Shown here one piece after another: positions 16,461 through 46,563 of a stretch of DNA of 64,000 nt (position 1 is the first letter of the stretch; each line of letters opens with the position of its first letter). This stretch comes from Actinomadura litoris. GTDB lineage: Bacteria; Actinomycetota; Actinomycetes; Streptosporangiales; Streptosporangiaceae. The notes under the pieces were generated by a model. It had not been told where the DNA came from. It searched no databases and worked only from the letters and a program-made list of their open reading frames with translations. The DNA is taken from NCBI RefSeq assembly GCF_009733595.1, contig NZ_WOFH01000006.1, positions 434,001 to 498,000 on the forward strand, in the 5' to 3' direction. The translations under genes and the position numbers were made by a program.

Positions 16461-17906
16461 GTGACCGGGACGGCCGAGCGGCCGGGCGCGCGCGAGCTGC
16501 TGCGCCGCGTCCTGGACGGCGGATGGACGTCCTGGGACGCCCCGATCGGCGCGGGCGAGAGCGAGGAGCTCGCCGCCGCCCGCGTGCGCAGCGGCTGCGA
16601 CGAGTCCGTGCTCACCGGCGCGGGCCTCCTGCGGGGGCGCCGCGTCGCGTTCGTGGTGTCGGAGTTCCGCTTCCTCGCGGGCTCGATCGGCCGCGCCACC
16701 GCCGACCGGATCGTCGCCGCCGTCGAGCGCGCCACCGCCGAGCGCCTCCCGCTGCTCGCGGCGCCGTGCTCCGGCGGGACGCGCATGCAGGAGGGCACGG
16801 CGGCGTTCGTGGAGATGGCGCGGATCACCGCCGCCGTCATGGCGCACCGCGCCGCCGGGCTGCCCTACCTCGTCCACCTGCGCCACCCCACCACCGGCGG
16901 CGTGTTCGCGTCGTGGGGCTCCCTCGGCCACGTGACCTCCGCCGAACCGGGCGCGCTGATCGGCTTCCTCGGCCCGCGCGTCCACGAGGGGCTGCGCGGC
17001 GAGCCGTTCCCGGCGGGGGTCCAGGTCGCCGAGAACCTCGCCGCGAAGGGCCTGCTGGACGTCGTGGTCGGCGTCGACGGCCTGGCGGACGCCGTGTCCC
17101 GCGCCCTGGACGTCCTGTGCGCGAGGCCGCCCGCCGCCGAGGTGCCGGAGCCGCCGTCCGCGGTCGCGGACGATCCCGTGTGGGACTCGGTCGTCCGGTC
17201 GCGGGCCCCGAACCGTCCGGGTGCGCGCGACCTGATCCACCACGGCGCGACCCTGGTCACCCCGCTCTCGGGCACGGCCGACGCGGCGCCGGGCCTCGTC
17301 CTCGCCCTGGCCCGCTTCGGAGCCGCGCCCTGCGTCCTGGTCGCCCAGGACCGCGCGGGCCAGCGCGGCGGCCACCCCCTCGGGCCCGCCGGTCTGCGTG
17401 TCGCCCGCCGGGGCATGCGCCTGGCCGCCGAACTCGCGCTGCCGCTGGTCACGGTCGTGGACACCCCCGGCGCCGCCCTGTCGGCCGAGGCCGAGGAGGG
17501 CGGTCTGGGCGGTGAGATCGCCCGCTGCCTCGCCGAGATCGTCACCCTTCCCGCTCCCACGCTGAGCCTCCTGCTGGGCGAGGGCGCCGGCGGCGCCGCG
17601 CTGGCCCTCCTCCCGGCCGACCGCGTGCTCGCCGCCCGGCACGCCTGGCTCGCCCCGCTGCCGCCCGAGGGCGCGTCGGTGATCGTCCACCGCACCCCGG
17701 ACCGCGCCGCCGAACTGGCGGCCGACCAGGGCGTCCGCGCGGCGGACCTGCTCCGCGACGGCATCGTGGACGCGATCGTCGACGAGCGCCCCGACGCCTC
17801 CGCCGAACCGGCCGCGTTCTGCCGCCGCGCCGCGCGGGCGGTCGAGCGCGGGCTGTCGGGCCTCGCCCCCGGCACGGCCGCCGCCCGCCTGACCCGCCGC
17901 CGTTGA
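16461..17906 (+). CDS. Fused acetyl-CoA carboxylase carboxyltransferase (beta then alpha)
   Basis: A 481-residue protein combining an AccD-like N-terminal half (GTRMQEGTAAFVEMARI; HPTTGGVFASWGSLGHV) with an AccA-like C-terminal half (GHPLGPAGLRVARRGMRLA; GEGAGGAALALLPADRVLA). It would transfer the carboxyl group from biotin to an acyl-CoA. The four-Cys zinc finger of stand-alone AccD is absent. No biotin carboxylase or biotin-carrier gene lies nearby, so the partner subunits are elsewhere. The GTG start has GGAGGAGG just upstream. The stop codon lies inside the -35 box of the next gene's promoter. Confidence 0.85.
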   Translation: MTGTAERPGARELLRRVLDGGWTSWDAPIGAGESEELAAARVRSGCDESVLTGAGLLRGRRVAFVVSEFRFLAGSIGRATADRIVAAVERATAERLPLLAAPCSGGTRMQEGTAAFVEMARITAAVMAHRAAGLPYLVHLRHPTTGGVFASWGSLGHVTSAEPGALIGFLGPRVHEGLRGEPFPAGVQVAENLAAKGLLDVVVGVDGLADAVSRALDVLCARPPAAEVPEPPSAVADDPVWDSVVRSRAPNRPGARDLIHHGATLVTPLSGTADAAPGLVLALARFGAAPCVLVAQDRAGQRGGHPLGPAGLRVARRGMRLAAELALPLVTVVDTPGAALSAEAEEGGLGGEIARCLAEIVTLPAPTLSLLLGEGAGGAALALLPADRVLAARHAWLAPLPPEGASVIVHRTPDRAAELAADQGVRAADLLRDGIVDAIVDERPDASAEPAAFCRRAARAVERGLSGLAPGTAAARLTRRR

Positions 17907-17932
17907 CCATATTTCGTTTGGGTACGTACGAT
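17903..17932 (+). promoter_or_regulatory. Promoter with shared MarR-type operator, site 1
   Basis: A -35 TTGACC (17903-17908), 18-base spacer, -10 TACGAT (17927-17932). The operator-like TCGTTTGGGTACGTACGAT (17914-17932) covers the spacer end and the -10. The same arrangement recurs before other catabolic units in this window. The amidotransferase start follows 28 bp later. Confidence 0.75.
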
Positions 17933-17959
17933 TTGGGGTCAACGTTCCAAGGAGGTTCC

Positions 17960-18661
17960 GTGCGCGCCCTGCTCATCCACCACGACCACCTGTCGATCCC
18001 CGGCCCGGTGGGCGAGCGCCTGACCGAGCACGGGTGGGACCTCGAAGAGCGCCTGATCGTCCCCGCCGACCTCCACCACGCCCCGGGCGTGGACTTCGAG
18101 TTCCCCGACCCGCTCGCGTGGGACCTGATCATCCCCATGGGCTCCCCGTGGTCGGTCAACGACGCGGTCGTCGCCTCCTGGGTGGCGCCCGAGCTGGCCA
18201 TGCTCGGCAAGGCGCACGCGGCGGGCGTCCCGGTCCTCGGCATCTGCTTCGGCGGCCAGGCGCTCGCGGCGGCGCTCGGCGGCACCGTCGAACGCGCGCC
18301 GCGTCCGGAGATGGGCTGGGTGGAGGTCGAGACCGACGACCCGTCGCTGGTCGGGCCGGGCCCCTGGTTCCAGTTCCACTACGACCGCTGGACGCTGCCG
18401 CCCGGCGCCGTCGAGATCGCCCGCTCGGCCGCCGGTTCCCAGGCCTTCGTCCTCGGGCGCTCGCTGGGCCTCCAGTTCCACCCGGAGATCACCGCCGCCG
18501 AGCTGGAGTCGTGGCTGGTCAACGGCGGGGACGCGCACATGCGCGCCGAGGGCGTCGACCCCGGCGCCGTCCTGGCCGAGGTCCGCCGGACCGAGGCCGC
18601 CTCCGCCGCCCGCACCCACGCCCTCGTGGACGCCTTCCTCACCAAGGTGGCCACCGTCTGA
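17960..18661 (+). CDS. Class I glutamine amidotransferase-like protein
   Basis: A 233-residue GATase1-fold protein. The nucleophile Cys is at about residue 96 in LGICFGGQAL, and the His-Glu pair is in LQFHPEI. It has no synthetase domain, so it probably hydrolyses a gamma-glutamyl amide or supplies ammonia to a separate partner. The GTG start has AAGGAGG four bases upstream. Its promoter carries the same operator as the PuuC/PuuD, glutamine-synthetase-like and permease units, which points to gamma-glutamyl metabolism; that role is inferred from context. Confidence 0.82.
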   Translation: MRALLIHHDHLSIPGPVGERLTEHGWDLEERLIVPADLHHAPGVDFEFPDPLAWDLIIPMGSPWSVNDAVVASWVAPELAMLGKAHAAGVPVLGICFGGQALAAALGGTVERAPRPEMGWVEVETDDPSLVGPGPWFQFHYDRWTLPPGAVEIARSAAGSQAFVLGRSLGLQFHPEITAAELESWLVNGGDAHMRAEGVDPGAVLAEVRRTEAASAARTHALVDAFLTKVATV

Positions 18662-20765: not shown

Positions 20766-21476
20766 TTACAGTGCGTGGCGGCCCCCGCTCGCCGCCCGGA
20801 CCAACGCGGCGAAAAGGGACTGCTGCGCGCGGTCGGTCGCGGCGGTGTCCTCCGGATGCCACTGGACGGCGAGGAACCACCCGCCGGAGGGTTCGGCGAG
20901 TTCGGCGGCCTCGATCGTCCCGTCCGCGGACCGGGCGGTCGGCCGGAGGCCCGGGGCCAGCGTCGCGACCGCCTGGTGGTGGTAGCAGGAGGCGACCGTC
21001 TCCTCGGCGTCGAGGGTCTTGGCCAGCAGGGTGCCGGGGGAGACGGCCACGGGGTGGACGTGGTGGCGGTGGTCGCGCTCCATGTGCTGGTCGAGCGTGC
21101 CGCCGAGCACCGCGTTCACGACCTGGAACCCCCGGCAGACCGCGAGCGTGGGCAGCCCGCTCTCCAGGACGTGGGACGCGAGCGCCAGGTCGAACTCGTC
21201 CTGGAGGTCGTCCACGTCGTAGAGGGTCTCGTGCTCGGACGTGGCCCCGTAGTGCCGGGGGTGGAGGTCGCCGCCGCCCGGCAGCAGCACGCCGTCGCAG
21301 CGCGCCAGCCGGGACGCCTCGAACGGCGCGGCCGGGTGCATGACGAACGGCTCGCCGCCCGCCCGGTGGACGGCCTCCACCAGCGCCCGCGCCGCGACCT
21401 CCGCCGCGTACCGCAGGGCGGAGGCGCCCGCCGAGAACCGGGCCGGGATCGCGATGAGGGGCCTGGCGGCGGTCAC
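20766..21476 (-). CDS. puuD: PuuD-like gamma-glutamyl hydrolase (peptidase C26)
   Basis: A 236-residue class I amidotransferase-fold hydrolase. In E. coli, PuuD splits gamma-glutamyl-GABA in putrescine breakdown. The nucleophile Cys is at residue 114 (LAVCRGFQVV), the same position as in E. coli PuuD, and the His-Glu pair is in VQWHPED. The GTG start overlaps the stop of the PuuC-like gene by four bases (GTGA), so the two are co-translated. This pairing is strong evidence that gamma-glutamylated intermediates are handled here. The real amine may differ from putrescine. Confidence 0.9.
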   Translation of the reverse strand: MTAARPLIAIPARFSAGASALRYAAEVAARALVEAVHRAGGEPFVMHPAAPFEASRLARCDGVLLPGGGDLHPRHYGATSEHETLYDVDDLQDEFDLALASHVLESGLPTLAVCRGFQVVNAVLGGTLDQHMERDHRHHVHPVAVSPGTLLAKTLDAEETVASCYHHQAVATLAPGLRPTARSADGTIEAAELAEPSGGWFLAVQWHPEDTAATDRAQQSLFAALVRAASGGRHAL

Positions 21477-22957
21477 AGCTCGATCCAGGTGGTCTTGAGG
21501 TCGGTGTACTTGTCGAGCGCGTGCAGCGACTTGTCGCGGCCGTGGCCGGACTGCTTCACGCCGCCGAAGGGCACGCTCATGTCGCCCTCCTCGTAGCAGT
21601 TGACCCAGACCGTCCCCGCGCGCAGGGCGCGCGACACCCGGTGCGCGGTGGACAGGTCCGATGTCCACACGGCGGCGGCGAGCCCGTAGTCGCTGTCGTT
21701 GGCGATCGCGAGCGCCTCCTCCACCTCGTCGAACTCCAGCACGGCGAGGACCGGCCCGAAGATCTCGTCGCGCGCCACCGGCATCGACGGCTTGACCCGG
21801 TCGAAGACCGTCGGCGCGAGGTAGAAGCCGTCGCCCTCGGGAAGGGCGCCGCCGCCGGCGCGCAGCCGGGCGCCCGAGCCGAGCGCGGCCTCGACGTGCG
21901 AGGCCACCCGGCCCCGGTGGGCGGCCGAGACGAGCGGCCCCATCTCGGTGGCCGGGTCGAGCGGGTCGCCGACGCGCAGCGACTCGGCGCGGGCCGTGAT
22001 CCGGTCGAGCACCCGGTCCGCGACGGAGCGGTGGACGAGCAGCCGGGACGGGGCGCTGCACATCTCCCCGGCGTTGAAGAAGATGCCCCAGGCGGCGGTG
22101 TCGGCGGCGGCGTCCAGGTCCGGGGCGTCCGGCAGGATGATGTTGGGGGACTTGCCGCCCAGCTCCAGCCAGACGCGCTTCAGGTTGGACCCGGCCGCGT
22201 AGCGCAGGAAGTGCCGGCCGACCTCGGTGGAGCCGGTGAAGGCCAGCACGTCCACGCCGGGGTGCTCGCCGAGGGCGCGCCCGGCGACCTCGCCCGGCCC
22301 GTTGACGACGTTGAACACCCCCGGCGGGAGCCCCGCCTCGGCGGCGAGCGCGGCCAGGTGCAGCGCCGACAGCGGCGACTCCTCGGCGGGCTTCAGCACG
22401 ACCGTGCAGCCCGCGGCGAGCGCCGGGGCGATCTTCCAGGCCGCCATCGTCAGCGGGAAGTTCCACGGGACGACCGCCGCCACCACGCCCGCCGGCTCCC
22501 GGGTGATCAGCGCGAGCGACGAGCCGGACGTGCGGGGCGACTCGTCCAGCTGCTTGTCGGCGGCCTCGGCGTACCAGCGCAGGCAGTTGATCAGGGCGCG
22601 CAGCTCGATCCCGAAGGTGTCCTTGATCGGCTTGCCCATCTCCAGGCTGACCAGGAGCGCGAGGCTCTCGCGGTCCCGCTCGACGAGATCGGCCCAGCGC
22701 AGCATCGCGGCCTTGCGCTCGGCGGGCGCGAGGCGCGGCCAGGGGCCGAGGTCGAAGGCGCCGCGGGCGGCGGCGACGGCGTCCCCGGCGCGGGCGGCGT
22801 CGGCGGAGGCGACGTGCGCGATCGTCCGCCCGTCGCGCGGGGAGACGACGGGAAAGCTCCCCGGGCCGTCGACGAACGCGCCGTCGATGTGGTGTCCGGT
22901 GTGGGGGACGAGCCCGGCGGCACGGCTGCGCCACTCCTCGTACGGGACGTCGGTCAC
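21473..22957 (-). CDS. puuC: PuuC-like aldehyde dehydrogenase
   Basis: A 494-residue NAD(P)-dependent aldehyde dehydrogenase. The general base Glu is in LELGGKSPN and the catalytic Cys in NAGEMCSAPSR. Length and ends match gamma-glutamyl-aminobutyraldehyde dehydrogenase PuuC and related phenylacetaldehyde-type enzymes. The GTG at 22957 is preferred to an upstream in-frame start at 23026, because GAGGAGGGG lies before it and the longer version would read through the operator. It is the first gene of a two-gene operon with the PuuD-like hydrolase. Confidence 0.92.
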   Translation of the reverse strand: MTDVPYEEWRSRAAGLVPHTGHHIDGAFVDGPGSFPVVSPRDGRTIAHVASADAARAGDAVAAARGAFDLGPWPRLAPAERKAAMLRWADLVERDRESLALLVSLEMGKPIKDTFGIELRALINCLRWYAEAADKQLDESPRTSGSSLALITREPAGVVAAVVPWNFPLTMAAWKIAPALAAGCTVVLKPAEESPLSALHLAALAAEAGLPPGVFNVVNGPGEVAGRALGEHPGVDVLAFTGSTEVGRHFLRYAAGSNLKRVWLELGGKSPNIILPDAPDLDAAADTAAWGIFFNAGEMCSAPSRLLVHRSVADRVLDRITARAESLRVGDPLDPATEMGPLVSAAHRGRVASHVEAALGSGARLRAGGGALPEGDGFYLAPTVFDRVKPSMPVARDEIFGPVLAVLEFDEVEEALAIANDSDYGLAAAVWTSDLSTAHRVSRALRAGTVWVNCYEEGDMSVPFGGVKQSGHGRDKSLHALDKYTDLKTTWIEL

Positions 22958-22980: not shown

Positions 22981-23000
22981 TTCGTTTGAACCCAAACATT
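22981..23000 (-). promoter_or_regulatory. Shared MarR-type operator, site 2 (puuC side)
   Basis: TTCGTTTGAACCCAAACATT contains the palindrome GTTTG-AACC-CAAAC (22984-22997). On the minus strand a -10-like TAATGT (22996-23001) overlaps it. No clear -35 is visible. It lies 24 bp before the puuC start. Confidence 0.65.
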
Positions 23001-23012: not shown

Positions 23013-23056
23013 TTGACCGCCGCCATCCCCGCTTCCTAGATTATTTGGGACCAAAC
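23013..23056 (+). promoter_or_regulatory. Promoter with shared operator, site 3 (hpaE side)
   Basis: A -35 TTGACC (23013-23018), 18-base spacer, -10 TAGATT (23037-23042), then the palindrome TTTGG-GA-CCAAA (23044-23055) at the expected transcription start. The hpaE ATG follows at 23076 with GGAGGTG as ribosome site. Confidence 0.72.
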
Positions 23057-23075
23057 AAACTGGAGGTGCACAGCG

Positions 23076-24530
23076 ATGGCAACAGTCGCGGGCGTCGCCG
23101 TCGATACCGGGCACTGGATCGGAGGTGAGCGCGTCCCCGCCGGGGGCGGCGCGACGTTCACCGACGTCTCGCCGATCGACGAGCGGCCGATCGCCGAGAT
23201 CGCGCGCGGCGGGGCCGCGGAGGCGGAGGCGGCGGTGGCCGCCGCGCACCGGGCCTTCCCCTCCTGGTCCCGGACGAGCCGGGAGGAGCGGGCGCGGATC
23301 CTGCACGCGGTCGCCGACGGCGTCGAGAAGCGGATCGAGGAGCTGGCGCAGGTCGAGACCGCCGACAACGGCGCGCTGATCCGCTCCCACCGGCGCGGCG
23401 TCATGCCCCGGGTCGCCCACAACTTCCGGTTCTTCGCCGACTGGCTGCTGAACCTCGGCCACGACGACTTCGAGACGCGCGGCCACACCAACCACGTCAG
23501 CTGGGACCCGGCGGGCGTCTGCGCGCTGATCACCCCGTGGAACGCCCCGCTGATGCTGGCCACCTGGAAGATCGCGCCCGCGCTGGCGGCCGGGAACACG
23601 GTCGTGCTCAAGCCCGCCGAGTGGACGCCGCTGACCGCCTCCCTCCTCGCCGACATCGCGGCCGAGGCCGGGCTGCCGGACGGGGTGTTCAACGTCGTCC
23701 AAGGCTACGGCGCCGAGGTCGGCGGCCCGCTGACCGCGCACCCCGACGTCAGGCGGATCAGCTTCACCGGCTCGGTGCCGACCGCGCGGACGATCGCCGC
23801 CGCGGCGGCCCCCAACCTGACGCCGCTGTCGCTGGAGCTGGGCGGCAAGTCGCCGCTGATCGTCTTCGCGGACGCCGACCTCGACCTCGCCGTCGACCTC
23901 GCCGTGGAGCAGTACGACAACGCCGGGCAGGTCTGCCTCGCCGCGACGCGGCTGCTCGTGGAGTCCTCGATCGCCGAGGAGTTCACCCGGCGGTTCCTGG
24001 AGAAGGCGGGCCGGCTCACGCAGGGCGACCCGCGCGACGAGGCGACCGATATCGGCCCGCAGATCCACCGCCGCCACCTGGAGCGCGTCGACGGCTTCGT
24101 CCGGCGCGCCAGGGACGCGGGCGCCCGCGCGCTGATCGGCGGCGGCCCCAACGAGGACCTCGGCGGCCTGTACTACCGCCCGACCCTCTTCGCGGACGCC
24201 CCGGAGGGCGCGGAGATCCTCACCGAGGAGGTCTTCGGGCCCGTCCTGACGCTCCAGACCTTCGAAACCGAGGAGCAGGCCGTCGCGATGGCGAACGGCA
24301 CCCGCTTCGGCCTCGCCGCGACGCTCGCGACGGGCGACCGGGAGCGCGCGCGGCGCGTCACCGAGCGGCTCGTGGCCGGGACGGTCTGGGTGAACTGCTT
24401 CTTCGTCCGCGACCTGAAGGCGCCGTTCGGCGGCGCCCGGCAGTCCGGCGTGGGACGCGAGGGCGGCGACTGGAGCTTCGACTTCTACTGCGACCTCAAG
24501 AACACGGTGACGGCGCCATGGGCGAGGTAG
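23076..24530 (+). CDS. hpaE: HpaE-like 5-carboxymethyl-2-hydroxymuconate semialdehyde dehydrogenase
   Basis: A 484-residue aldehyde dehydrogenase. Glu is in LELGGKSPL and Cys in NAGQVCLAATR. The C-terminal stretch VNCFFVRDLKAPFGG is typical of HpaE/HpcC of homoprotocatechuate breakdown, which oxidises the semialdehyde made by ring cleavage. It is first in an operon with an extradiol dioxygenase and a FAH-family enzyme, the matching neighbours for that pathway. The next gene overlaps its end by 13 bp. Confidence 0.88.
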   Translation: MATVAGVAVDTGHWIGGERVPAGGGATFTDVSPIDERPIAEIARGGAAEAEAAVAAAHRAFPSWSRTSREERARILHAVADGVEKRIEELAQVETADNGALIRSHRRGVMPRVAHNFRFFADWLLNLGHDDFETRGHTNHVSWDPAGVCALITPWNAPLMLATWKIAPALAAGNTVVLKPAEWTPLTASLLADIAAEAGLPDGVFNVVQGYGAEVGGPLTAHPDVRRISFTGSVPTARTIAAAAAPNLTPLSLELGGKSPLIVFADADLDLAVDLAVEQYDNAGQVCLAATRLLVESSIAEEFTRRFLEKAGRLTQGDPRDEATDIGPQIHRRHLERVDGFVRRARDAGARALIGGGPNEDLGGLYYRPTLFADAPEGAEILTEEVFGPVLTLQTFETEEQAVAMANGTRFGLAATLATGDRERARRVTERLVAGTVWVNCFFVRDLKAPFGGARQSGVGREGGDWSFDFYCDLKNTVTAPWAR

Positions 24531-25420
24531 TCGGCGCGGGGCTGCTCGCGCACGTCCCGACGATCGTGCTCCCCGAGGTGACGCGGCGCGAGCTGAACCA
24601 CGGCGAGGACACCACGCTCGTCCCGGGCCTGAAGCGGCTGCGCGCGGACGTCTTCGAGCGCGACGACTACGACACCGTCGTCGTCCTGGACTCGCACTGG
24701 GCCACGACCGTCGAGTTCGTCACCACGGCGCACGACCGGCGCGCGGGGCTCTACACCTCCGAGGAGCTGCCGCGGGGCATGTCCCGCATGCCCTACGACT
24801 TCCCGGGCGACCCCGAGCTGGCCCGCGCCGTCGCCGACTACGCCGGCAAGCACGGGACCTACATCACCCCGATCGACGACCCGTACCTGCCGATCTACTA
24901 CGCGACCGTCAACCTGTGGACGCACCTCGGCGTCCGCGACGACCCCTACCTGGGCGACCCCGGCCGCCGGTGGATCTCGATCGGCGTCTGCCAGACCGCC
25001 GACACCGAGGACTTCCTGCGCCTCGGCCGCGCCCTCGGCGACGCGATCGCGGCCGTGGACCGCCGCGTGCTGCTGATCGCGTCGGGCGCGCTGTCGCACA
25101 CGTTCTGGCCGCTGCGCGTGATCCGCGACCACGAGGCGGCCGGACCGGAGCACATCTTCACCCCCGAGGCCCGCGCGGCCGACGAGGAGCGCATCGGCTG
25201 GCTTGAGGCGGGCGACCACGCCCGCGTCCTGGACACCATGCCGGAGTTCCTCAAGTTCAAGCCCGAGGCCCGCTTCGGCCACTACCTCATGATGATCGGG
25301 GCGCTCGGGGAGCACGCCTGCACGGCCCCCGGCCGCCTCTACAGCGAGTACGAGAACTCCGTCGGTACCGGCCAGGTGCACATCTGGTTCGACCGCCCCG
25401 AGCATGGATGGACCAGCTGA
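24518..25420 (+). CDS. hpaD: Class III extradiol dioxygenase, HpaD-like (3,4-dihydroxyphenylacetate 2,3-dioxygenase)
   Basis: A 300-residue LigB-superfamily dioxygenase that opens the ring of a catechol next to the hydroxyls, using Fe(II). Likely metal or active-site residues are seen in LLAHVPTI (His near 11), VVLDSHW (about 57-63), IASGALSH and the C-terminal Glu/His region. Homology style and flanking HpaE and FAH genes point to homoprotocatechuate as substrate. The ATG lies inside the end of hpaE, so the two are coupled. Confidence 0.88.
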   Translation: MGEVVGAGLLAHVPTIVLPEVTRRELNHGEDTTLVPGLKRLRADVFERDDYDTVVVLDSHWATTVEFVTTAHDRRAGLYTSEELPRGMSRMPYDFPGDPELARAVADYAGKHGTYITPIDDPYLPIYYATVNLWTHLGVRDDPYLGDPGRRWISIGVCQTADTEDFLRLGRALGDAIAAVDRRVLLIASGALSHTFWPLRVIRDHEAAGPEHIFTPEARAADEERIGWLEAGDHARVLDTMPEFLKFKPEARFGHYLMMIGALGEHACTAPGRLYSEYENSVGTGQVHIWFDRPEHGWTS

Positions 25421-25421
25421 C

Positions 25422-26267
25422 GTGACCGAATACCGGAGGATCCTCCTCGACGGCGCCGCGACCCAGGTCGTGCGGGACGGAGAGGAGCTGGTCGGCGCGG
25501 ACGGGCGCCGCGTCCGCGCCGACGAGGCCGTGCACCTGCCGCCGTGCGAGCCGTCCAAGGTCATCGCGGTGCACCTCAACCACCGCAGCCGCGTGGAGGA
25601 GTTCCAGACCAGCCTGCCGCCCGCGCCCACGTTCTTCCACAAGCCGATCTCGGCGCTGAACGCGCACGGCGGCGCGGTCGTCCGCCCGGAGCGGTGCAAG
25701 TACCTCAACTACGAGGGCGAGATCGCGATCGTCATCGGCCGGACGGCGCGCAACGTGTCGCCGAAGGAGGCGGGCGAGTACATCGCGGGCTACACCGTCG
25801 CCAACGACTACGGCCTGCACGACTTCCGCGACACCGACGCCGGGTCGATGCTGCGGGTCAAGGGCTCGGACACGCTGTGCCCGCTCGGCCCCGGCCTCGT
25901 CACCGGCTGGGACTTCCACGGCAAGTACCTGCGCACCTACGTCAACGGCGAGCTGGTGCAGGACGGCAGCACCGACGAGATGGAGTGGGACATGCACTAC
26001 CTCGTCGCCGACATCGCCCGCACGATCACCCTCTACCCCGGGGACGTGCTGCTGTCGGGCACCCCGGCCAACTCGCGGCCCGTCCAGCCGGGCGACGTCG
26101 TCGAGGTCGAGGCCGAGGGCCTCGGACGGCTCCGCAACCACATCGTCGCCGGTCCCGTCCCGATCCGGGACGACTGCGGCGCGCAGCCGACCGAGTCCGA
26201 GGAGGTCATCTCGACCACGTTCGGCGGCGACTGGGAGTTCCGGGGCATCCGCGCCCCCCGCCGCTGA
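25422..26267 (+). CDS. hpaG: Fumarylacetoacetate-hydrolase family protein, HpaG-like
   Basis: A 281-residue FAH-fold enzyme. It has metal-binding acidic residues in NYEGEIAIVIG and NDYGLHDFRDTD, a Lys in RVKGSDTLCPLG, and SGTPANS near the end. In meta-cleavage pathways this family decarboxylates or isomerises 5-oxo-pent-3-ene-1,2,5-tricarboxylate (HpaG). The start is taken at GTG 25422, directly after the hpaD stop; an ATG at 25404 in the same frame is an alternative. It is last in the operon, with a strong hairpin at 26300-26333. Genes for the later hydratase (HpaH) and aldolase (HpaI) are not in the window. Confidence 0.83.
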   Translation: MTEYRRILLDGAATQVVRDGEELVGADGRRVRADEAVHLPPCEPSKVIAVHLNHRSRVEEFQTSLPPAPTFFHKPISALNAHGGAVVRPERCKYLNYEGEIAIVIGRTARNVSPKEAGEYIAGYTVANDYGLHDFRDTDAGSMLRVKGSDTLCPLGPGLVTGWDFHGKYLRTYVNGELVQDGSTDEMEWDMHYLVADIARTITLYPGDVLLSGTPANSRPVQPGDVVEVEAEGLGRLRNHIVAGPVPIRDDCGAQPTESEEVISTTFGGDWEFRGIRAPRR

Positions 26268-29073: not shown

Positions 29074-29103
29074 ATCGTACGGGCCCAAACGATCGCCGGG
29101 CAA
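29074..29103 (-). promoter_or_regulatory. Promoter with shared operator, site 4 (LLM gene)
   Basis: On the minus strand: -35 TTGCCC (29103-29098), 18-base spacer, -10 TACGAT (29079-29074). The operator ATCGTTTGGGCCCGTACGAT fills 29093-29074, over the -10. The start codon is seven bases away, consistent with a leaderless message. Confidence 0.75.
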
Positions 29104-29760: not shown

Positions 29761-29789
29761 TTGTCCGTCATTGTTCGGGCCCGTACGAT
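29761..29789 (+). promoter_or_regulatory. Promoter with shared operator, site 5 (permease)
   Basis: A -35 TTGTCC (29761-29766), 17-base spacer, -10 TACGAT (29784-29789). Operator ATTGTTCGGGCCCGTACGAT (29770-29789). It points toward the APC permease at 29863. Confidence 0.72.
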
Positions 29790-29807
29790 CTCCCGCAATC
29801 CGCATCT

Positions 29808-29823: not shown

Positions 29824-29862
29824 AATATTCCCCGAGGGTCCGCACCGGCACTGGAGCTGCCC

Positions 29863-39554: not shown

Positions 39555-39607
39555 TTGACCGTTCATCGTTTGGCCCCATACGTTCGCCATACGTTTGGGC
39601 CCAAATT
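39555..39607 (+). promoter_or_regulatory. Promoter with two shared operators, sites 9 and 10 (amidohydrolase-ABC unit)
   Basis: A -35 TTGACC (39555-39560), 18-base spacer, -10 TACGTT (39579-39584). Site 9, ATCGTTTGGCCCCATACGTT (39565-39584), covers the -10. Site 10 contains the perfect palindrome TTTGGGCCCAAA (39594-39605) just downstream. The ATG follows at 39625 after an AAGGAG ribosome site. Confidence 0.75.
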
Positions 39608-39624
39608 AAGGAGCAGGGGCGCAC

Positions 39625-41325
39625 ATGAACCACTCCCCGGACCTGGTGCTACTGGACGGCGAGGTCCTCACGGCCGACGCGCGGTTCTCGGTGGCGCAGG
39701 CTGTGGCCATCACCGGCGGGAAGATCACAGCGGTCGGTTCGACCGAGGACGTACGCGCGCTGGCCGGCCCCCGCACCCAGGTCGTCGACCTGCGCGGGCG
39801 CACGGCCCTGCCCGGCATCAACGACTCGCACCTGCACGGCTGCGCGTTCGGCGTCAACCGCCCGCCGCTCGCCCTGGACGTGGCGCACCCGGCGGTCCTC
39901 TCGATCGCCGACATCGTCGCCACCGTGAAGGAGGCGGCGTCCCGCACCCCCGAGGGCGAGTGGATCCGCGGGAACGGCTGGGACCCCGGCTACCTGACCG
40001 AGTGCCTCGACGGCGGGCGGATGCCGAACCGCACCGACCTCGACGCGGTCGCCCCGTCCCACCCCGTGTACCTCCAGGACTTCAGCGGCCACCTCACCTG
40101 GGCCAACACGCGGGCGCTGGAACTCGCCGGGATCACCGCCGACAGCGAGTCGCCGGAGGGCGGCCGCATCCACGTGGACGGCGCCGGCAACCCGACCGGC
40201 CTGCTCGCCGAGGGCGCGCAGGACCTCCTCCAGCGGCACCTGCCCGCCTACACCCGCGCCCAGATCGAGCAGGCGATCCGCGAGGCGGTGGGCGCCCTCC
40301 AGCGGGAGGGCATCACCAGCTACACCGAGCCGGGCCTCGGTCCGGGCGGCAAGAGCCTGTTCGCGGGCGCCGCGAGCCAGCTCACCCTGGACGTCTACGG
40401 CGACCTCGCCCGCGCCGGCGACCTCGGCGCGCGCGTCAGCGTCCTGCTGCTGCTGACCGGGATGAGCGGCTCGGCCGCCGAGATCGCCGAGGGGCTCGCG
40501 AACGCGAAGACCCCGCAGGACGTCGACCCGCGCATCCTCAACGTCATCGGCGTGAAGCTGTTCGCCGACGGCATCCCGCCCAACGAGACCGCGTGGATGC
40601 GCGACCAGTACCCCGGCGGCGACTTCGGCTGCCTGTGCGTGCACGGCGCCGCCGACGCGCTGCGCACCCGCGAGCTGAACGAGATGATCCGGCTCGCGCA
40701 CGTCGCCGGCCACCAGCTCGGCGTGCACGTCACCGGGGACCGTGCCATCGACGCCGTCGTGGACGCCTTCGAGGCCGCGCAGGCCGAGCACCCCCGCGAC
40801 GACCCGCGCCACTACGTGATCCACGCCGACCTGCTCGGGCCGCAGAGCATGCGCAAGCTCGCCCGGCACGGCTTCGGCGCGAACATGAACCCGGCGATCA
40901 AATGGATGATCGTTGACATGCTGGAGGAGCAGCTCGGCCATGAGCGGGCGGCCTACCAGTATCCCGTCCGATCGGCGATCGAGGCCGGTATCCCGGTCAC
41001 CGCCAGCTCGGACGCGCCCGTCGCCTCGCCCAACTGGCGGCAGGGCGTGGCGGCGATGCTGCTGCGCGAGTCCAAGGCCAGCGGCCGGACGTTCGGCCCC
41101 GAGCAGCGCGTCGGGCTGCCGGAGGCCGTCCGCGCCTACACCGTGAACGCCGCCTGGCAGGACTTCGCCGAGGACTGGAAGGGCACCCTCGAACCCGGCA
41201 AGGCCGCCGACGTCACCGTCCTGGACGGGACGCTCACCGCCCTCGACCCCCACGACCTCCCGGACGTCCCCGTCGCCCTGACCGTCTTCGACGGCGGGAT
41301 CGTCCACAGCACCGAAGGTCTCTGA
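39625..41325 (+). CDS. YtcJ-like metal-dependent amidohydrolase
   Basis: A 566-residue amidohydrolase-superfamily enzyme. The metal motif is NDSHLHG (about 66-72), GVKLFADG carries the bridging Lys region, HVTGDRA and HADLL give further His ligands, and SSDAPV carries the Asp. YtcJ/NfdA-type members hydrolyse N-formyl or other amide bonds, so it may release the amine or acid from an N-acyl substrate. It is first in a six-gene unit; the binding-protein gene starts two bases after its stop. Confidence 0.88.
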   Translation: MNHSPDLVLLDGEVLTADARFSVAQAVAITGGKITAVGSTEDVRALAGPRTQVVDLRGRTALPGINDSHLHGCAFGVNRPPLALDVAHPAVLSIADIVATVKEAASRTPEGEWIRGNGWDPGYLTECLDGGRMPNRTDLDAVAPSHPVYLQDFSGHLTWANTRALELAGITADSESPEGGRIHVDGAGNPTGLLAEGAQDLLQRHLPAYTRAQIEQAIREAVGALQREGITSYTEPGLGPGGKSLFAGAASQLTLDVYGDLARAGDLGARVSVLLLLTGMSGSAAEIAEGLANAKTPQDVDPRILNVIGVKLFADGIPPNETAWMRDQYPGGDFGCLCVHGAADALRTRELNEMIRLAHVAGHQLGVHVTGDRAIDAVVDAFEAAQAEHPRDDPRHYVIHADLLGPQSMRKLARHGFGANMNPAIKWMIVDMLEEQLGHERAAYQYPVRSAIEAGIPVTASSDAPVASPNWRQGVAAMLLRESKASGRTFGPEQRVGLPEAVRAYTVNAAWQDFAEDWKGTLEPGKAADVTVLDGTLTALDPHDLPDVPVALTVFDGGIVHSTEGL

Positions 41326-41326
41326 C

Positions 41327-42499
41327 ATGCGAATCGCACCTCTCCTCGCCGCGGCCGTCCTGGTCGCGCCCCTGGCGGCATGCGCGGACGACAGCTCCGG
41401 CTCCGCCTCCGGGCCCATCAACATCGGCTCGGTCTCGACGCTGAGCGGCCCGGTCACCTTTCCCGAGGCGTCCCAGGCCGCCCGCGCCGTGTTCGACGAC
41501 GTCAACGCGAACGGCGGCATCAACGGCCGCAAGATCGCCTACACCGCCGCCGACGACAAGGGCGACCCGGCCAGCGCCGCGCTCGCCGCCCGCGACGTCA
41601 TCCAGAACAAGAAGGCCGTCGCGCTCGCGGGCGGCGCGAGCCTCGTCGACTGCCAGGTCAACGGCCCGCTCTACAAGCGCAACAAGATCACCGACGTGCG
41701 CGGCATCGGGGTGGACCCCGGCTGCTTCACCTCGCCGAACATCTCGCCGGTCAACACCGGCCCGTTCTTCGGCTCGACCGTGACGCTGTACTACGCGTCC
41801 GAGAAGCTGAAGCTGAACAAGATCTGCGCGTTCTTCTCCATCATCGGCAGCACCGCGAACGCCTACCGCGAGGGCGTCGACCGCTGGTCCAAGATCACCG
41901 GTAAGAAGCTGCTGGTCAACGACCTGAGCCTGTCGGCCTCCACCACCGACTTCACCCCCTACGTGCTGCGCGCCCGCAGCGCCGGCTGCGAGGCCGTGCT
42001 GTTCAACGGCGTCGAGCCGATGTCGATCGGCTGGGTCAAGGCCGCGCAGGCGCAGAAGATCAACAACATCAAGTGGCTGTTCCTCGCCTCCACCTACACG
42101 GTCGAGGCGTCCAAGGCCCTCGGCCCGGCGGGCAAGAACGTCGTGGCGCTGTCGGAGTTCGAGCCCTACACCGACGAGCAGTCCGCCGCGAACAAGGACT
42201 GGCGGGCGACGATGACCAAGCACAAGGTGCCCCTCACCGCGTTCGCGCAGGGCGGCTACCTCGCGGCCCAGCACCTGGTCACGGTGCTGCGCTCGATCAA
42301 GGGCGACATCACCCGCGAGAAGGTCACCAAGGCGATGGAGGACCTCAAGCCGCTGCCCTCGGGCATGACGGGCATGCCGTTCGCGTTCGGCACCGGCGAC
42401 GCGCACGCCTCCAACCTCGCCGCCAAGTTCGTGAAGCCGGACGCGAAGGGCGGTTGGAGCGTCCTGACGCCCGAGTGGGTCAAGCTGCCCAATGCTTGA
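41327..42499 (+). CDS. ABC transporter substrate-binding lipoprotein (LivK type)
   Basis: A 390-residue binding protein with a signal peptide and lipobox (LAAC, Cys near residue 19). The Leu/Ile/Val-binding-protein fold follows (INIGSVSTLSGPVTFPE; VNANGGINGRK). Such proteins bind amino acids, amides, urea or aromatic acids outside the membrane. Its operon neighbours are both permeases and both ATPases, so the importer is complete. The permease ATG lies inside its last codons. Confidence 0.92.
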   Translation: MRIAPLLAAAVLVAPLAACADDSSGSASGPINIGSVSTLSGPVTFPEASQAARAVFDDVNANGGINGRKIAYTAADDKGDPASAALAARDVIQNKKAVALAGGASLVDCQVNGPLYKRNKITDVRGIGVDPGCFTSPNISPVNTGPFFGSTVTLYYASEKLKLNKICAFFSIIGSTANAYREGVDRWSKITGKKLLVNDLSLSASTTDFTPYVLRARSAGCEAVLFNGVEPMSIGWVKAAQAQKINNIKWLFLASTYTVEASKALGPAGKNVVALSEFEPYTDEQSAANKDWRATMTKHKVPLTAFAQGGYLAAQHLVTVLRSIKGDITREKVTKAMEDLKPLPSGMTGMPFAFGTGDAHASNLAAKFVKPDAKGGWSVLTPEWVKLPNA

Positions 42500-43349
42500 G
42501 GGAGCGATCGCCGGACTCGCCGGCGGCGGCGCCTACGCCGCACTCGGGCTCTGCCTCACGCTCATGTTCCGCCTGGTCAGGGTCGTCAACTTCGCCCAGG
42601 TCGCGATCGGCGTGATCGGCGTCTACACGATGGCGATCGCCTCCGAGCACGGCTGGCCCTACGGGGCCGCCGCGCTCGCGGGGCTGCTCGCCGCGACGCT
42701 GGTCGCCGCCGTGCTCGGCTGGGTGATGGGCAAGTGGTTCGGGGAGGCGGGCGCCGACCAGCGCTCGGCGATCTCCATCGCGTTCCTCGTCGGCCTGCTC
42801 GCCGTCTCCTACCTGGTGTTCGGCACCGACCCGCGCCGGATGCCCGGCAAGTTCGGCGGCTCGCTGTTCACCGTGGACGGCATCACGGTCACGCAGGCGG
42901 CGGCCGTCTGCGCGGTCGGCTCGGTGGTGGTCGCGGGCGCGGCGTGGCTCGTCCTCACCCGGACGGTCCTCGGGCTGCGGCTGCGGGCACTGTCGGAGCG
43001 GCCGACGACCGCCGAGCTGCACGCGATCCCCTCCCGCCGCCTCGGCGTCGGGATGTGGGCGGTCACCGGGCTGCTCGCGGCGGCCGTGCTGCTGGTCGTC
43101 GCGCCGCAGCAGACCAGTGACCAGACGTCGCTGGCGCTGATGGTGATCCCGGCGGGCGCCGCGGCGCTGGTCGGCGGCTTCACCAGCCTCGGCCGGACGG
43201 TCGCGGGCGGCCTCGGGCTCGGCGCGCTCCAGGGCGCGCTGGCCCACGTCACCGAGTTGCAGCAGTACCGCGACACGGTGCCGTTCCTGGCGATCCTCGC
43301 CATCTTGATCTGGTCCCAGAGGCGGGAGGTGTGGGATGCGGCTCGCTGA
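42492..43349 (+). CDS. Branched-chain-type ABC permease (LivH type)
   Basis: A 285-residue membrane protein with about eight helices and the family start GLAGGGAYAALGLCLTLMFR followed by VVNFAQ. It forms half of the membrane channel. It overlaps the binding-protein gene by eight bases and the next gene by 14 bases. Confidence 0.92.
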   Translation: MLEGAIAGLAGGGAYAALGLCLTLMFRLVRVVNFAQVAIGVIGVYTMAIASEHGWPYGAAALAGLLAATLVAAVLGWVMGKWFGEAGADQRSAISIAFLVGLLAVSYLVFGTDPRRMPGKFGGSLFTVDGITVTQAAAVCAVGSVVVAGAAWLVLTRTVLGLRLRALSERPTTAELHAIPSRRLGVGMWAVTGLLAAAVLLVVAPQQTSDQTSLALMVIPAGAAALVGGFTSLGRTVAGGLGLGALQGALAHVTELQQYRDTVPFLAILAILIWSQRREVWDAAR

Positions 43350-45060
43350 CAAGCAGGCCAACCCGGCCGCGTCGGTGCTCGGCCCGCTCGCCCAGCCGGC
43401 CGTCGCGCTGCTGGTCATCGCGGTCGCGGCGGCGGTCGTCCCGCAGTACTGGCTGTTCCTCGCGACGTCGGTGCTGGTGTCGGCGGTCGCGCTGCTCGGC
43501 CTCGGCATCGTCGGACGCGCCGGGATGAACTCGCTGTGCCAACTCGCGTTCGCGGCGGTCGGCGCGTGGACGGTCGCCCAGCTCAACGTCTGGCAGGCGC
43601 CGGGCGGGCTGATCGTCTGGACGATCGCGGGCGGTGTCGCCGCGATGCCGTTCGGCGTGCTGATCGGGCTTCCGGCGCTGCGGCTGCGGGGGGTCCACCT
43701 CGCGGTCGTCACGCTCGGGTTCGCGGCGGCCGCCGACGTGGTGATCGCGGCGGTCAACTTCCCCGGCGTGGAGACGTTCGAGCAGGTCGAGCGGCCGATG
43801 TTCATCGCCACCGACCGGCAGTACTTCGTCTACGCGGGCGTGCTGTTCGTCGTCGCCGCGATCGGCGTCGAGTGGCTCGGCCGCACCCGGATGGGCGCCG
43901 CGTGGCGCGCCGTCCGGTTCTCCGAGCGCGCGACCGCCGCGTCCGGGACGAGCGTCGCCCGCGCCAAGCTGTCGGCGTTCGCGCTGAGCGCGTTCGGCGC
44001 GGGCCTGGCGGGCGGGCTGCTCGCCGGGCAGGTCGGCATGATCACGGCGCAGAACTTCACCACGATCAGCTCGCTGGCGCTGTTCGTCGTCGCCGTCATG
44101 GCGGGCAGCGAGTACGTGGGCGGCGCGCTGTTCGGCGGCGTCCTGATCGCGTTCGTGCCGGAGATCTTCCGCCGCGCCGGGATCAACCAGGACTGGGCGA
44201 ACGTGCTGTTCGGCGTCGGCGCCGTCCAGGCGCTCTCGCAGGGCAGCAGCGTCAGCGAGGGGCTGGCCCGCAGGCTGCGGGCGCGCAGACCCGCGCGCGT
44301 CCCCGAACCCCGGCCGTCGCAGGACGTCGGCGCGCCGCCGCTGGGGACCAGGCCGCTGCTGGAGGTCGAGGGCCTCGGCGTCCGGTTCGGGCAGGTCGTC
44401 GCGCTGGAGAACGTGGACCTCGTCGTCCCCGAGGGCACCGTCATGGGGCTGATCGGGCCGAACGGCGCGGGCAAGTCCACGCTCACCGACGCGCTGTCGG
44501 GGTTCCTCACGTCCGCGACGGGGTCGGTCACGCTCGACGGCCGCAAGCTGGACGGGATGCCCGTGCACCGCCGCGCCGCCGCCGGGCTGCGCCGCACCTT
44601 CCAGCAGGACCGCGTCCCGACCGGCCTCACCGTCGGCGCCTACCTGCGCTTCGCCGCGCACCGCTCGGTCACCCGGGAGGAACTGGAGGAGGTCCGCACG
44701 TTCCTCGGCTGCCCGGCCCTGAACGCGCACGTCTTCGACCTGGACGTCGGCAGCCGCCGCCTGCTGGAGGTGGCCGCCGCGCTGCTGGCCCGGCCGAAGC
44801 TGATCATCCTGGACGAGCCCGCCGCCGGCCTCGCGCACGCCGAGTCGCTCGCCCTCGCCGACCGGCTCGTGGAGGTGCCCGCCCGGTTCGGCGCGTCCGT
44901 GCTGCTGATCGAGCACGACCTCGACATGGTCCGGCGGGCCTGCGCGAGCGTCGTCGTCCTCGACTTCGGCTCGGTCATCGCCTCGGGACCGCCCGCCGAG
45001 GTGCTCGCCAGGCCCGAGGTCGCCCGCGCCTACCTGGGAGACGAGGTGGCACTCACGTGA
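43336..45060 (+). CDS. Fused ABC permease-ATPase (LivM-LivG type)
   Basis: A 574-residue fusion: a LivM-like membrane part (about 1-305, with the GLIG-type core LRLRGVHLAVVTLGFAAA), a Pro/Arg linker, then a LivG-like ATPase (about 335-574). Walker A is GPNGAGKST and Walker B is IILDEPAAGL. The signature region reads LDVGSRRLLEVAAALL instead of the usual LSYGQ, so the second ATP site may be weakened. Such fusions are known in this importer class. The next gene starts inside its stop (GTGA). Confidence 0.9.
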   Translation: MRLADKQANPAASVLGPLAQPAVALLVIAVAAAVVPQYWLFLATSVLVSAVALLGLGIVGRAGMNSLCQLAFAAVGAWTVAQLNVWQAPGGLIVWTIAGGVAAMPFGVLIGLPALRLRGVHLAVVTLGFAAAADVVIAAVNFPGVETFEQVERPMFIATDRQYFVYAGVLFVVAAIGVEWLGRTRMGAAWRAVRFSERATAASGTSVARAKLSAFALSAFGAGLAGGLLAGQVGMITAQNFTTISSLALFVVAVMAGSEYVGGALFGGVLIAFVPEIFRRAGINQDWANVLFGVGAVQALSQGSSVSEGLARRLRARRPARVPEPRPSQDVGAPPLGTRPLLEVEGLGVRFGQVVALENVDLVVPEGTVMGLIGPNGAGKSTLTDALSGFLTSATGSVTLDGRKLDGMPVHRRAAAGLRRTFQQDRVPTGLTVGAYLRFAAHRSVTREELEEVRTFLGCPALNAHVFDLDVGSRRLLEVAAALLARPKLIILDEPAAGLAHAESLALADRLVEVPARFGASVLLIEHDLDMVRRACASVVVLDFGSVIASGPPAEVLARPEVARAYLGDEVALT

Positions 45061-45773
45061 AGGAACTGAAGCTGGAGGACGTCGCGGTCGCGCGCGGCGC
45101 CGCACCGATCGTCCGCGACGTGACGCTCACCGTGCCCGCCGGGGAGGTGACCGTCCTGCTCGGCCCGAACGGCGCCGGGAAGACGACGCTGCTGGAGGCG
45201 GTGGCGGGCGTGCTGCCGATCGCCTCGGGCCGGCTGACCGGCGACGGCGACGACCTCGCCGGGCTCGACCGGGTCGCGCGGGCCCGGCGCGGCATCGCGC
45301 TCGTCGAGCAGGGCCGGACGGTGTTCACCCAGCTCACCGTCGCCGAGAACCTGCGGGTCGTGCGGCGCGGCGGCGGCCCCGACCGGACCGCCGAGCTGTT
45401 CCCCGAGCTGGACAAGCGGATGGACGTCCCGGCCGGGCTGCTGTCGGGCGGCGAGCAGCAGATGGTCGTGCTCGCCCGCGCGCTCGCGATGTCGCCGTCG
45501 GTGCTGCTGATCGACGAGATGTCGCTCGGCCTCGCCCCGGTGATCGTGAAGCGGCTGCTGCCCGCCGTCCGGCAGCTCGCCGACGAGGGCGTCGCGGTGC
45601 TGCTCGTCGAGCAGTTCGCGACGCTCGCGCTGGAGATCGCCGACACCGCGCACGTGCTGGCGGGCGGCCGGGTCACCCACAGCGGCCCGGCGGCCCCGCT
45701 GCGCAAGTCGCCGGAGCTCCTGCACGCCGCCTACCTGGGCGAACCTGGCCGAGTCGATGAAGAGGGAGCGTGA
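45057..45773 (+). CDS. ABC transporter ATPase (LivF type)
   Basis: A 238-residue ATPase. Walker A is GPNGAGKTT, the Q-loop is IALVEQGRTVF, the normal signature is LSGGEQQMVV, and Walker B is VLLIDEMSLGLAP. It pairs with the ATPase half of the fused subunit, which has the degenerate signature, so the heterodimer would have one standard and one altered site. The SDR gene follows after one base. Confidence 0.93.
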   Translation: MKELKLEDVAVARGAAPIVRDVTLTVPAGEVTVLLGPNGAGKTTLLEAVAGVLPIASGRLTGDGDDLAGLDRVARARRGIALVEQGRTVFTQLTVAENLRVVRRGGGPDRTAELFPELDKRMDVPAGLLSGGEQQMVVLARALAMSPSVLLIDEMSLGLAPVIVKRLLPAVRQLADEGVAVLLVEQFATLALEIADTAHVLAGGRVTHSGPAAPLRKSPELLHAAYLGEPGRVDEEGA

Positions 45774-45774
45774 G

Positions 45775-46563
45775 ATGGGACGGGTGCTGATCGTCACCGG
45801 CGGCGGCAGCGGGATCGGGGCGGCCGTCGCGCGCGGCGCCGCCGCGGACGACCACGTGGTGATCTGCGGGCGCCGCAAGGAGGCGCTGGAGCGGGTCGCG
45901 GCCGACAGCGGCGCCGAGCCGCGGGTCTGCGACGTCGCCTCCCCGGGCGCGGTCGCCGAGCTGGTCGAGGACGTCGTCGCCGCGCACGGACGGCTGGACG
46001 GCGTCGTCGCCAACGCGGGCGCGCTGCGCAACGGCGCCGTGCTCGACCTCTCGCCGCAGGACTGGCAGCTCACCATCGACACCAACCTGACGTCGGTGTT
46101 CCTGCTGGCCAAGGCCGCGCTGCCGCACCTGATCGAGGCGCGCGGGTCGCTGGTCGCGGTCTCCTCGGTGGCGGCGCTGCGGGTCCCGACGGGCGTCGCC
46201 GCGTATGCGACGTCCAAGGCGGGGCTGACCATGCTCACCCAGACCATCGCGGCGGACTACGGGCCGCGCGGCGTCCGCGCGAACGTGGTGTGCCCCGGCT
46301 GGATCCGCACCGAGATGTCCGACCGGGAGATGGAGGAGTTCGGCGCGCCGCACGGCATCGGGCGCGAGGAAGCCTACGAGGAGGTCACCCGGCTCGTCCC
46401 GCAGCGCAGGGCGGGCACGCCCGAGGAGGCCGCGGCGGCGGTGCTGTGGCTGCTCGGGCCCGAGGCGTCCTACGTCAACGGCGCCGTGCTGAGCGTCGAC
46501 GGCGGCACCGCGCTCCCCGACCCGGGCACGGTGCCGTTCGAGTTCCAGATCCGTCCGCGTTAG
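45775..46563 (+). CDS. Short-chain dehydrogenase/reductase
   Basis: A 262-residue classical SDR. The NAD(P) motif is TGGGSGIG (about 8-15), NAG is in VVANAGALRNG, and the Ser-Tyr-Lys triad is in VSSVAAL and AYATSKAG. The C-terminus (VNGAVLSVDGG) is standard. The ATG at 45775 is chosen because it follows a GAGGGAG ribosome site and the cofactor motif starts at the right distance. It is the last gene of the amidohydrolase-importer unit, so it probably works on a product of that route. Confidence 0.92.
   Translation: MGRVLIVTGGGSGIGAAVARGAAADDHVVICGRRKEALERVAADSGAEPRVCDVASPGAVAELVEDVVAAHGRLDGVVANAGALRNGAVLDLSPQDWQLTIDTNLTSVFLLAKAALPHLIEARGSLVAVSSVAALRVPTGVAAYATSKAGLTMLTQTIAADYGPRGVRANVVCPGWIRTEMSDREMEEFGAPHGIGREEAYEEVTRLVPQRRAGTPEEAAAAVLWLLGPEASYVNGAVLSVDGGTALPDPGTVPFEFQIRPR

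Follow-up and report, generated by a model that had tools for sequence, protein, structure and literature searches.

The window analysed here is a stretch of 64,000 nucleotides from the 9.16-Mb genome of Actinomadura litoris (contig NZ_WOFH01000006.1, positions 434,001 to 498,000). It carries a cluster of genes for amidotransferase-type hydrolases (gat1, puuD), dehydrogenases (puuC, hpaE), an extradiol dioxygenase (hpaD), a FAH-family enzyme (hpaG), a luciferase-like oxidoreductase (LLM1), a MarR-family protein (marR), an APC-family permease, an ADC-fold protein, a glutamine-synthetase-like (GS-like) ligase with an adjoining cytochrome P450, and an amidohydrolase/ABC/SDR unit (Table 1). Ten palindromic sites mark the promoters of these genes, all within a few bases of where the original prediction, made by a model from the sequence alone, had placed them. 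Its count of nine transcription units stands as well, with the refinement that the sites fall into six regulatory regions, three of which are divergent promoters. The site at 17.9 kb lies upstream of the likely gat1 start once the start codon is reassigned. Sequence comparison makes it very probable that the nine units form a local regulon of a single MarR-family repressor, the product of marR.

Aligned on their dyads, the ten sites conform to one 20-bp palindrome with the consensus ATCGTTTGGGCCCAAACGAT. A palindrome matrix built from them scores the individual sites at 23.2-31.2 bits, or 20.4-30.2 bits in a leave-one-out test; the matrix favours A/T in DNA of 75% G+C, so that AT-rich places score better than they match. 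No further window position reaches 8 bits, and 50 shuffles of the window contained no 20-bit site. The 16-mer of the original prediction matches the window 14 times when up to two mismatches are allowed, against 2.9 expected (0 of 100 shuffles reached 14), and its exact matches genome-wide number three, all in the cluster. Nor is the motif equally dense in unrelated DNA: among the matches to the 20-mer pattern listed for the genome (100 of 105), 12 of 13 with no or one mismatch and eight of 16 with two lie in the cluster. The half-site CGTWYGG, which the original prediction had also put forward, is near chance on its own (51 window matches against 36.5 expected, reached by two of 100 shuffles) and was dropped as a detector; the information therefore resides in the full palindrome. 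The 16-mer at two mismatches proved useless genome-wide, where it matched 177 times and the reversed control 212 times.

Outside the cluster, seven genome positions among the matches listed come within two mismatches of the 20-mer. Two of them exceed 20 bits (C33:149825, 26.2 bits; C6:230060, 23.4 bits). Both are outside the listed open reading frames (ORFs); each is followed 56-67 bp downstream by a short ORF with no Pfam family, and both may be further targets of the regulon. Ten hand-picked three-mismatch matches from outside the cluster score at most 18.8 bits.

The palindrome recurs in relatives with the same MarR. Of 60 genomes of the genus that were searched, 31, our own included, encode an orthologue of at least 58% identity, and 28 of the 30 others were compared (G004 and G025 were left out). 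Each of the 28 shows a site scoring 19 bits or more, and the sites stand at orthologous promoters; the recurring locations are gat1, puuC/hpaE, LLM1, marR/APC, ADC/GS and the amidohydrolase gene. In G045, whose MarR is 57-60% identical, the sites are present in a cluster rearranged to hpaGDE-ADC, GS-P450 and marR. Beyond the genus, we collected 20 loci from the class, chosen by the dioxygenase alone and with our own genome excluded. Every one has a site, and together they hold 47 sites of at least 20 bits where 0.3 are expected; 39 of the 47 lie in promoter zones of module genes, which make up 13% of the sequence. The pairing of MarR and operator is also found in loci of Streptomyces, Actinophytocola, Microtetraspora, Yinghuangia and Sphaerimonospora.

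MarR and the dioxygenase occur together. Counting our own genome, the dioxygenase is found in 28 of the 60 genus genomes and MarR in all 28 of these, and in a class sample of 296 genomes the dioxygenase occurs in 21, MarR in 24 and the two together in 20. Fisher tests, in which relatedness is ignored, give p values of 4e-14 for the genus and 4e-26 for the class. MarR without the dioxygenase was seen in four class genomes, two with other module genes by marR (G187, G306) and two with none in the stretch (G262, G311).

In some genomes, marR and the enzyme genes lie apart. The distance between marR and the dioxygenase gene is 0.57-6.9 Mb on one contig in G077, G320 and G250, and in G104 marR is on another contig; despite the distant marR, these four genomes have sites of 19.7-29.1 bits at or near the enzyme genes. 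Upstream of marR their sites score 17.1 (G077), 16.4 (G320), 17.4 (G250) and 23.5/27.1 bits (G104). Three genomes (G001, G055, G059) keep marR with neither the dioxygenase nor the ADC gene, and their single site in 40 kb stands in front of marR. A Novosphingobium plasmid encodes homologous enzymes (HpaG 79%, ADC 58%, dioxygenase 55%). Its MarR is another one (30% over 87 residues), and no position there scores above 12.3 bits for the operator. The operator thus appears to track this MarR and not the enzymes, because Novosphingobium has the enzymes without it, lone marR genes keep a site and genomes with a distant marR keep the enzyme sites. In our window, the palindrome is present both at the target promoters and at marR's own promoter, as is expected of a MarR-controlled regulon. 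Conservation at orthologous promoters, co-occurrence, distant marR genes and lone marR sites all support the MarR regulon of the original prediction. This alphaproteobacterial counterpart of the module, at 9970-20432 of the Novosphingobium sp. EMRT-2 plasmid (L239), encodes a dioxygenase, a P450, a ligase, two dehydrogenases, an ADC protein, a FAH protein and a 2Fe-2S protein.

Table 1. Predicted operators and genes of the cluster, with positions in the window. Gene starts marked as likely were read from the sequence.
Feature	Position	Strand	Evidence and remarks
Predicted operator of gat1	17913..17932	+	27.6 bits; embedded in TTGACC-18-TACGAT
Predicted operator, puuC/hpaE divergent promoter	22981..23000	.	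29.8 bits
Predicted operator overlapping hpaE promoter -10 (TAGATT)	23040..23059	.	30.5 bits; TTGACC-18-TAGATT
Predicted operator of LLM1	29074..29093	-	31.2 bits; embedded in TTGCCC-18-TACGAT
Predicted operator, marR/APC divergent promoter	29770..29789	+	28.3 bits; TTGTCC-17-TACGAT directed to APC
Predicted second operator, marR/APC promoter	29806..29825	.	23.2 bits
Predicted operator, ADC/GS divergent promoter	32126..32145	.	26.2 bits
Predicted operator overlapping GS promoter -10 (TATGGT)	32232..32251	.	30.1 bits; TTGTCA-17-TATGGT
Predicted operator of amidohydrolase/ABC unit	39565..39584	+	28.2 bits; embedded in TTGACC-18-TACGTT
Predicted second operator of amidohydrolase/ABC unit, same promoter	39590..39609	.	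28.1 bits
gat1, class I glutamine amidotransferase-like, candidate gamma-glutamyl amide hydrolase	17960..18661	+	Pfam GATase 44.7 bits on longer ORF; likely start GTG at 17960, preceded by AGGAGG
puuD-like peptidase C26, candidate gamma-glutamyl amide hydrolase	20766..21470 (scanned stretch, start approximate)	-	Peptidase_C26 166.1 bits
puuC-like aldehyde dehydrogenase	21473..22957	-	Aldedh 573.5 bits; likely GTG start 22957; longest ORF reaches 23026
hpaE-like semialdehyde dehydrogenase	23076..24530	+	HpaE model 536.1 bits
hpaD-like LigB-type extradiol dioxygenase	24527..25420 (scanned stretch, start approximate)	+	LigB 84.8 bits; PDB 8iq8 73.8 bits
hpaG-like FAH-family isomerase/decarboxylase	25404..26267	+	FAA_hydrolase 191 bits; PDB 1gtt 226.5 bits
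LLM1, luciferase-like (F420/FMN) oxidoreductase	28135..29067	-	TIGR03619 168.3 bits (cut-off 166.9); likely start ATG at 29067, possibly leaderless; longest ORF reaches 29103
marR, presumed repressor, 191 aa, MarR winged helix	29123..29698	-	Pfam MarR PF01047 47.8 bits (cut-off 24.6)
APC-family amine/amino-acid permease	29863..31323	+	AA_permease_2 87.4 bits; likely ATG 29863, 3' of operators; longest ORF from 29680
ADC-fold protein, related to MppR and PDB 4zbo	31320..32108	-	PF06314 204 bits
GS-like ligase, candidate glutamate-amine ligase	32277..33638	+	Gln-synt_C 330.1 bits
Cytochrome P450, CYP124/125 neighbourhood, directly 3' of GS-like ligase	33661..34908	+	PDB 8vxi (CYP125MRCA) 414 bits, CYP124 285, CYP125 260
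Accessory genes: Amidohydro_3, Liv-type binding protein, permease, fused permease-ATPase, SDR	39625..46563	+	

Several observations weigh against a regulon of this MarR. Six of the 28 genus relatives (G020, G023, G028, G037, G043, G051) have no site of at least 12 bits next to marR; in these, marR lies on the same strand 0-0.1 kb downstream of the ADC gene, which has a site at its promoter, and readthrough from there may serve marR. The marR site is weak (16-18 bits) in G077, G320, G250 and G267, and the distant marR of G077, G320 and G104 adjoins other module-like genes and is thus not wholly separate. In the class sample, G260 has module genes and a weak site of 20.8 bits with no MarR match at E 1e-10, G311 has marR with no 15-bit site in 20 kb (best 12.8 bits), G262 has only one site, of 17.4 bits, and G187 has a site at ADC/GS and none at marR. 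Among 54 named loci, 23 of Lentzea type retain MarR and a GS-like gene, separated by nothing better than degenerate elements of at most 13.9 bits, and five others (L144, L175, L177, L180, L191) have marR with no 17-bit site in the stretch examined. The Lentzea-type set (L148-L176) comprises 22 Lentzea records and one labelled Nocardia; a variant operator looked for in Lentzea yielded weak conserved elements only. Its MarR is 63-65% identical to ours and divergent beside the GS-like gene (64-66%), and the rest of the module is not in the stretch examined.

The original prediction named the genes after puu, hpa and GS enzymes and described the regulon as one for amine catabolism. The names hold at family level, and none of the proteins reaches the cut-off of its NCBIfam equivalog. 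The scores are 536.1 of 638.35 bits for HpaE, 118 of 315.95 for HpaD (HpaD_Fe), 209.6 of 276.4 for HpaG, 68.1 of 266 for PuuD and 560.9 of 850 for PuuC, and the GS-like ligase misses both the GlnA (296.1 of 429.15 bits) and the GGputSyn equivalog. This counts against our reading of the gene set, as the labels therefore do not settle the assignment of a substrate. Amine catabolism is plausible as a description and incomplete, with aromatic ring cleavage also encoded. Glutamine synthetases carry EAP in the flap of the ammonia site (flap glutamate E327); judged against this canonical motif, the GS-like ligase appears to have Leu at the flap position (LAP, in GPDSLAP). The gene set probably breaks down a ring-bearing amine, for which the simplest candidate is an arylalkylamine or some other aromatic amine.

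Of the other explanations, the one that survives best accepts the MarR regulon and assigns it to homoprotocatechuate degradation in the manner of HpaR, with the amine part as a side branch. For the three ring-cleavage genes, the best NCBIfam names include models of the HpaE, HpaD and HpaG type, and HpaR, of the hpa-meta operon, is itself a MarR protein (available text of PMC7180172). Against this stand the cut-offs missed by HpaE, HpaD and HpaG, and likewise by the marR product for HpaR (TIGR02337, 50.3 of 121.2 bits), as well as the lack of any HpaI-family match in our own genome. The GS-like ligase and the P450 are retained in the reduced cluster of G045 and on the Novosphingobium plasmid, so that the amine part looks like a core component. 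We regard the HpaR-style assignment as unlikely, and favour a regulon in which amine and ring-cleavage functions belong together.

The ring-cleavage part of that regulon includes the ADC-fold protein, whose closest solved relatives are MppR (4jm3, 188 bits) and PDB 4zbo (183 bits). Its lysine motif GYPKKLG aligns with GMPKQFG and GFPKKLG of these two, and the aligned lysine is the Schiff-base lysine of the MppR-like ADC-fold group. PDB 4zbo is presumably Sbi00515, an aldolase-dehydratase. The protein misses the endura_MppR equivalog (209.3 of 380 bits) and differs from MppR in that the latter, by model name, belongs to enduracididine biosynthesis. Within the genus, the ADC gene and the dioxygenase are found in precisely the same 28 genomes. 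HpaI-family proteins exceed the cut-off in none of the 60 genus genomes. Our genome has two HpaH matches, on another contig and both below the cut-off. We propose, from these comparisons, the ADC-fold protein as a candidate hydratase-aldolase that replaces HpaH and HpaI. The argument from a missing aldolase is firm only for the 15 module genomes without any HpaI-family match, because the other 13 of the 28 have a protein below the cut-off. G045 counts against the proposal: its reduced cluster has an HpcH/HpaI-type gene (L113 14604-16166; 155 bits, cut-off 368.8) some 5 kb away from marR and lacking an operator, and the case for ADC alone replacing HpaI is therefore weaker there.

Could the palindrome be the operator of a different regulator, with MarR merely travelling with the cluster? 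Binding of MarR to the palindrome is predicted, a PucR-type protein (36384-37997) is encoded inside the span near module genes, and G260 has its weak site without a MarR match. However, a PucR orthologue (threshold 40% identity over half the protein) was not found in the fetched stretches of the operator-bearing genomes G020, G023, G031, G045 and G046, and in G001, G055 and G059, which have PucR and marR without the module, the sole site of at least 12 bits is at marR. An unlinked regulator would likewise have to accommodate a marR that accompanies the dioxygenase across the class and a Novosphingobium plasmid with the enzymes, another MarR and no operator. We consider control by PucR or an unlinked regulator highly improbable, and retain MarR as the regulator.

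Six of the ten sites overlap sigma70-like promoters. At the dyads 17922, 29083, 29779 and 39574, TACGAT or TACGTT is fixed in the right half of the palindrome and a TTG hexamer starts 17-18 bases upstream, while at dyads 23049 and 32241 the left edge overlaps a -10. The asymmetric right half (..TACGAT) of the originally predicted pattern is explained by this embedded -10 hexamer. In the genus relatives, TTG stands 16-19 nt upstream (always at 17 or 18) of 40 of 73 TAnnnT halves and of one of 107 control AAnnnT halves, counts given without a p-value for genomes that are not independent. Thus, in Actinomadura the predicted operator is often built around a -10-like box. The embedding was not replicated in other genera (0 of 4 such halves in the class loci and 4 of 15 in the named non-Actinomadura loci), which speaks against it as a universal feature; we dropped that idea and limit the embedding to the genus. 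Given the overlap of six sites with promoters, repression is likely, probably by blocking RNA polymerase. That the palindrome is instead a promoter element for an alternative or ordinary sigma factor is hardly credible: many genus sites do contain the -10-like hexamer at a fixed place with TTG 17-18 bases upstream, but the motif is palindromic, many symmetric sites without a TAnnnT half stand beside the promoter-embedded ones, and in class loci the palindrome persists where the promoter spacing does not.

The span of 17.9-46.6 kb given by the original prediction holds for the nine units and not for everything between them. A block of aldehyde dehydrogenase (ALDH), PucR and GabT genes (34952-39456) lies inside it without an operator and stays intact in G001, G055 and G059; we leave it out of the regulon because it has no site and persists without the module. 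It is probably a separate unit, related to gamma-aminobutyrate (GABA). The amidohydrolase/ABC/SDR genes, preceded here by two operators, were not found near marR in several relatives, and for this reason we class them as an accessory part of the module. A gap of about 0.7 kb separates the SDR gene from the preceding accessory gene, and its co-transcription with the amidohydrolase/ABC genes is uncertain. A VanY-type carboxypeptidase gene (26403-27038; vanY_far 232 bits, cut-off 250) lies between hpaG and LLM1; it is found at the same place in G054, and the remaining 27 cluster maps do not list it.

In the mechanism that we propose, a MarR dimer would bind the 20-bp palindrome overlapping or built into the promoters of the nine units and repress them, its own gene included, and would come off when a ligand, either aromatic or derived from an amine, is bound. 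The APC permease would take up the amine, the GS-like ligase would couple it to the gamma-carboxyl of glutamate, and the P450 would oxidise the glutamate-masked amine. Completing the side chain and freeing the glutamate would then fall to the PuuC-like dehydrogenase together with the PuuD-like and GAT1 hydrolases. The LigB dioxygenase would cut the catechol-type ring exposed in this way, enzymes of the HpaE and HpaG kind would process it further, and hydration and cleavage of the product to pyruvate and an aldehyde would be left to the ADC-fold protein. We see the catabolic route as drawn as evenly poised between holding and failing. Somewhat less secure, and offered tentatively, is the wider suggestion of a new pathway widespread in actinomycetes, in which masked arylalkylamines would pass through a CYP124/125-like P450 into meta-cleavage with one ADC-fold hydratase/aldolase, under one MarR and, in Actinomadura, an operator containing the -10.

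A regulon of repressor and operator is ordinary in kind. In searches of open-licence literature we found no paper describing this gene content or regulon, in agreement with the original prediction, or a combined amine/meta-cleavage route. Our analysis connects a MarR clade that had not been characterised with an operator, a promoter architecture and a set of genes; the pairing recurs in Actinomadura, Streptomyces, Yinghuangia and Actinophytocola. The pair of MarR and operator would be a ready sensor for finding the substrate, the replacement of two classic meta-pathway enzymes by an ADC fold becomes directly testable, and experiments can now treat an uncharacterised breakdown pathway as a single unit. 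The comparison also suggests functions for many genes recorded as unknown. A table in the available part of PMC9866976 contains part of the same gene set beside the lunaemycin cluster, mostly listed as Unknown, and several of these genes are among them. On Streptomyces lunaelactis pSLUN1 (L241, 5758-18983), module genes, with no P450 match, and operators adjoin the lunaemycin peptide cluster.

Several characterised systems resemble parts of the module. GlnA2, GlnA3 and GlnA4 of Streptomyces coelicolor, which are GS-like but altered at the ammonia site, join glutamate to amines (PMC8998196 and PMC6529630, as far as their text is available). GlnA4 and PauA7 lack the flap glutamate (PMC6529630, same part). 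The glnA4 gene is reported there to be repressed by EpuRI, and the available text mentions neither MarR nor a cytochrome. For the ring-cleavage genes, a Sphingobium plasmid has homologues of hpaE, hpaD and hpaG (52, 39 and 50%) together with an annotated HpcH aldolase and HpcG hydratase, in whose stead the ADC-fold gene is found here. The HpaR-controlled hpa-meta operon of E. coli W and Yersinia likewise combines a MarR repressor with HpaE/D/G-family ring-cleavage genes (available text of PMC7180172). Unlike that operon, the module has an amine-ligase/P450 front end and an ADC-fold protein in the place of HpaH/HpaI, and its proteins fall short of every equivalog cut-off.

The front end is most similar in composition to the Ipu route of Pseudomonas KIE171 and Paenarthrobacter aurescens TC1 (pTC1, pTC2), which likewise comprises a permease, a glutamate-amine ligase, a P450, an amidotransferase-type hydrolase and an aldehyde dehydrogenase. 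In P. aurescens TC1, isopropylamine is taken up and joined to glutamate by IpuC, and the amide is oxidised by the P450; release by an amidotransferase is presumed to follow (available text of PMC6776027). This order, in which gamma-glutamyl masking precedes oxidation, is our precedent for the proposed route. The combination of GS-like ligase, P450, amidotransferase hydrolase and permease is present in the module as on pTC2, with identities of only 31-43% (GS 36, PuuD 37, P450 31, APC 39, PuuC 43); at 36% and 31%, the ligase and the P450 are not close homologues of IpuC and the Ipu P450. The pTC2 stretch has no ring-cleavage genes, no MarR match and no operator, whereas the module has all three. 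Judged by its genes, the module thus appears to be an Ipu-like amine route joined to an Hpa-like meta-cleavage route, with an ADC-fold protein where a hydratase and an aldolase are usual.

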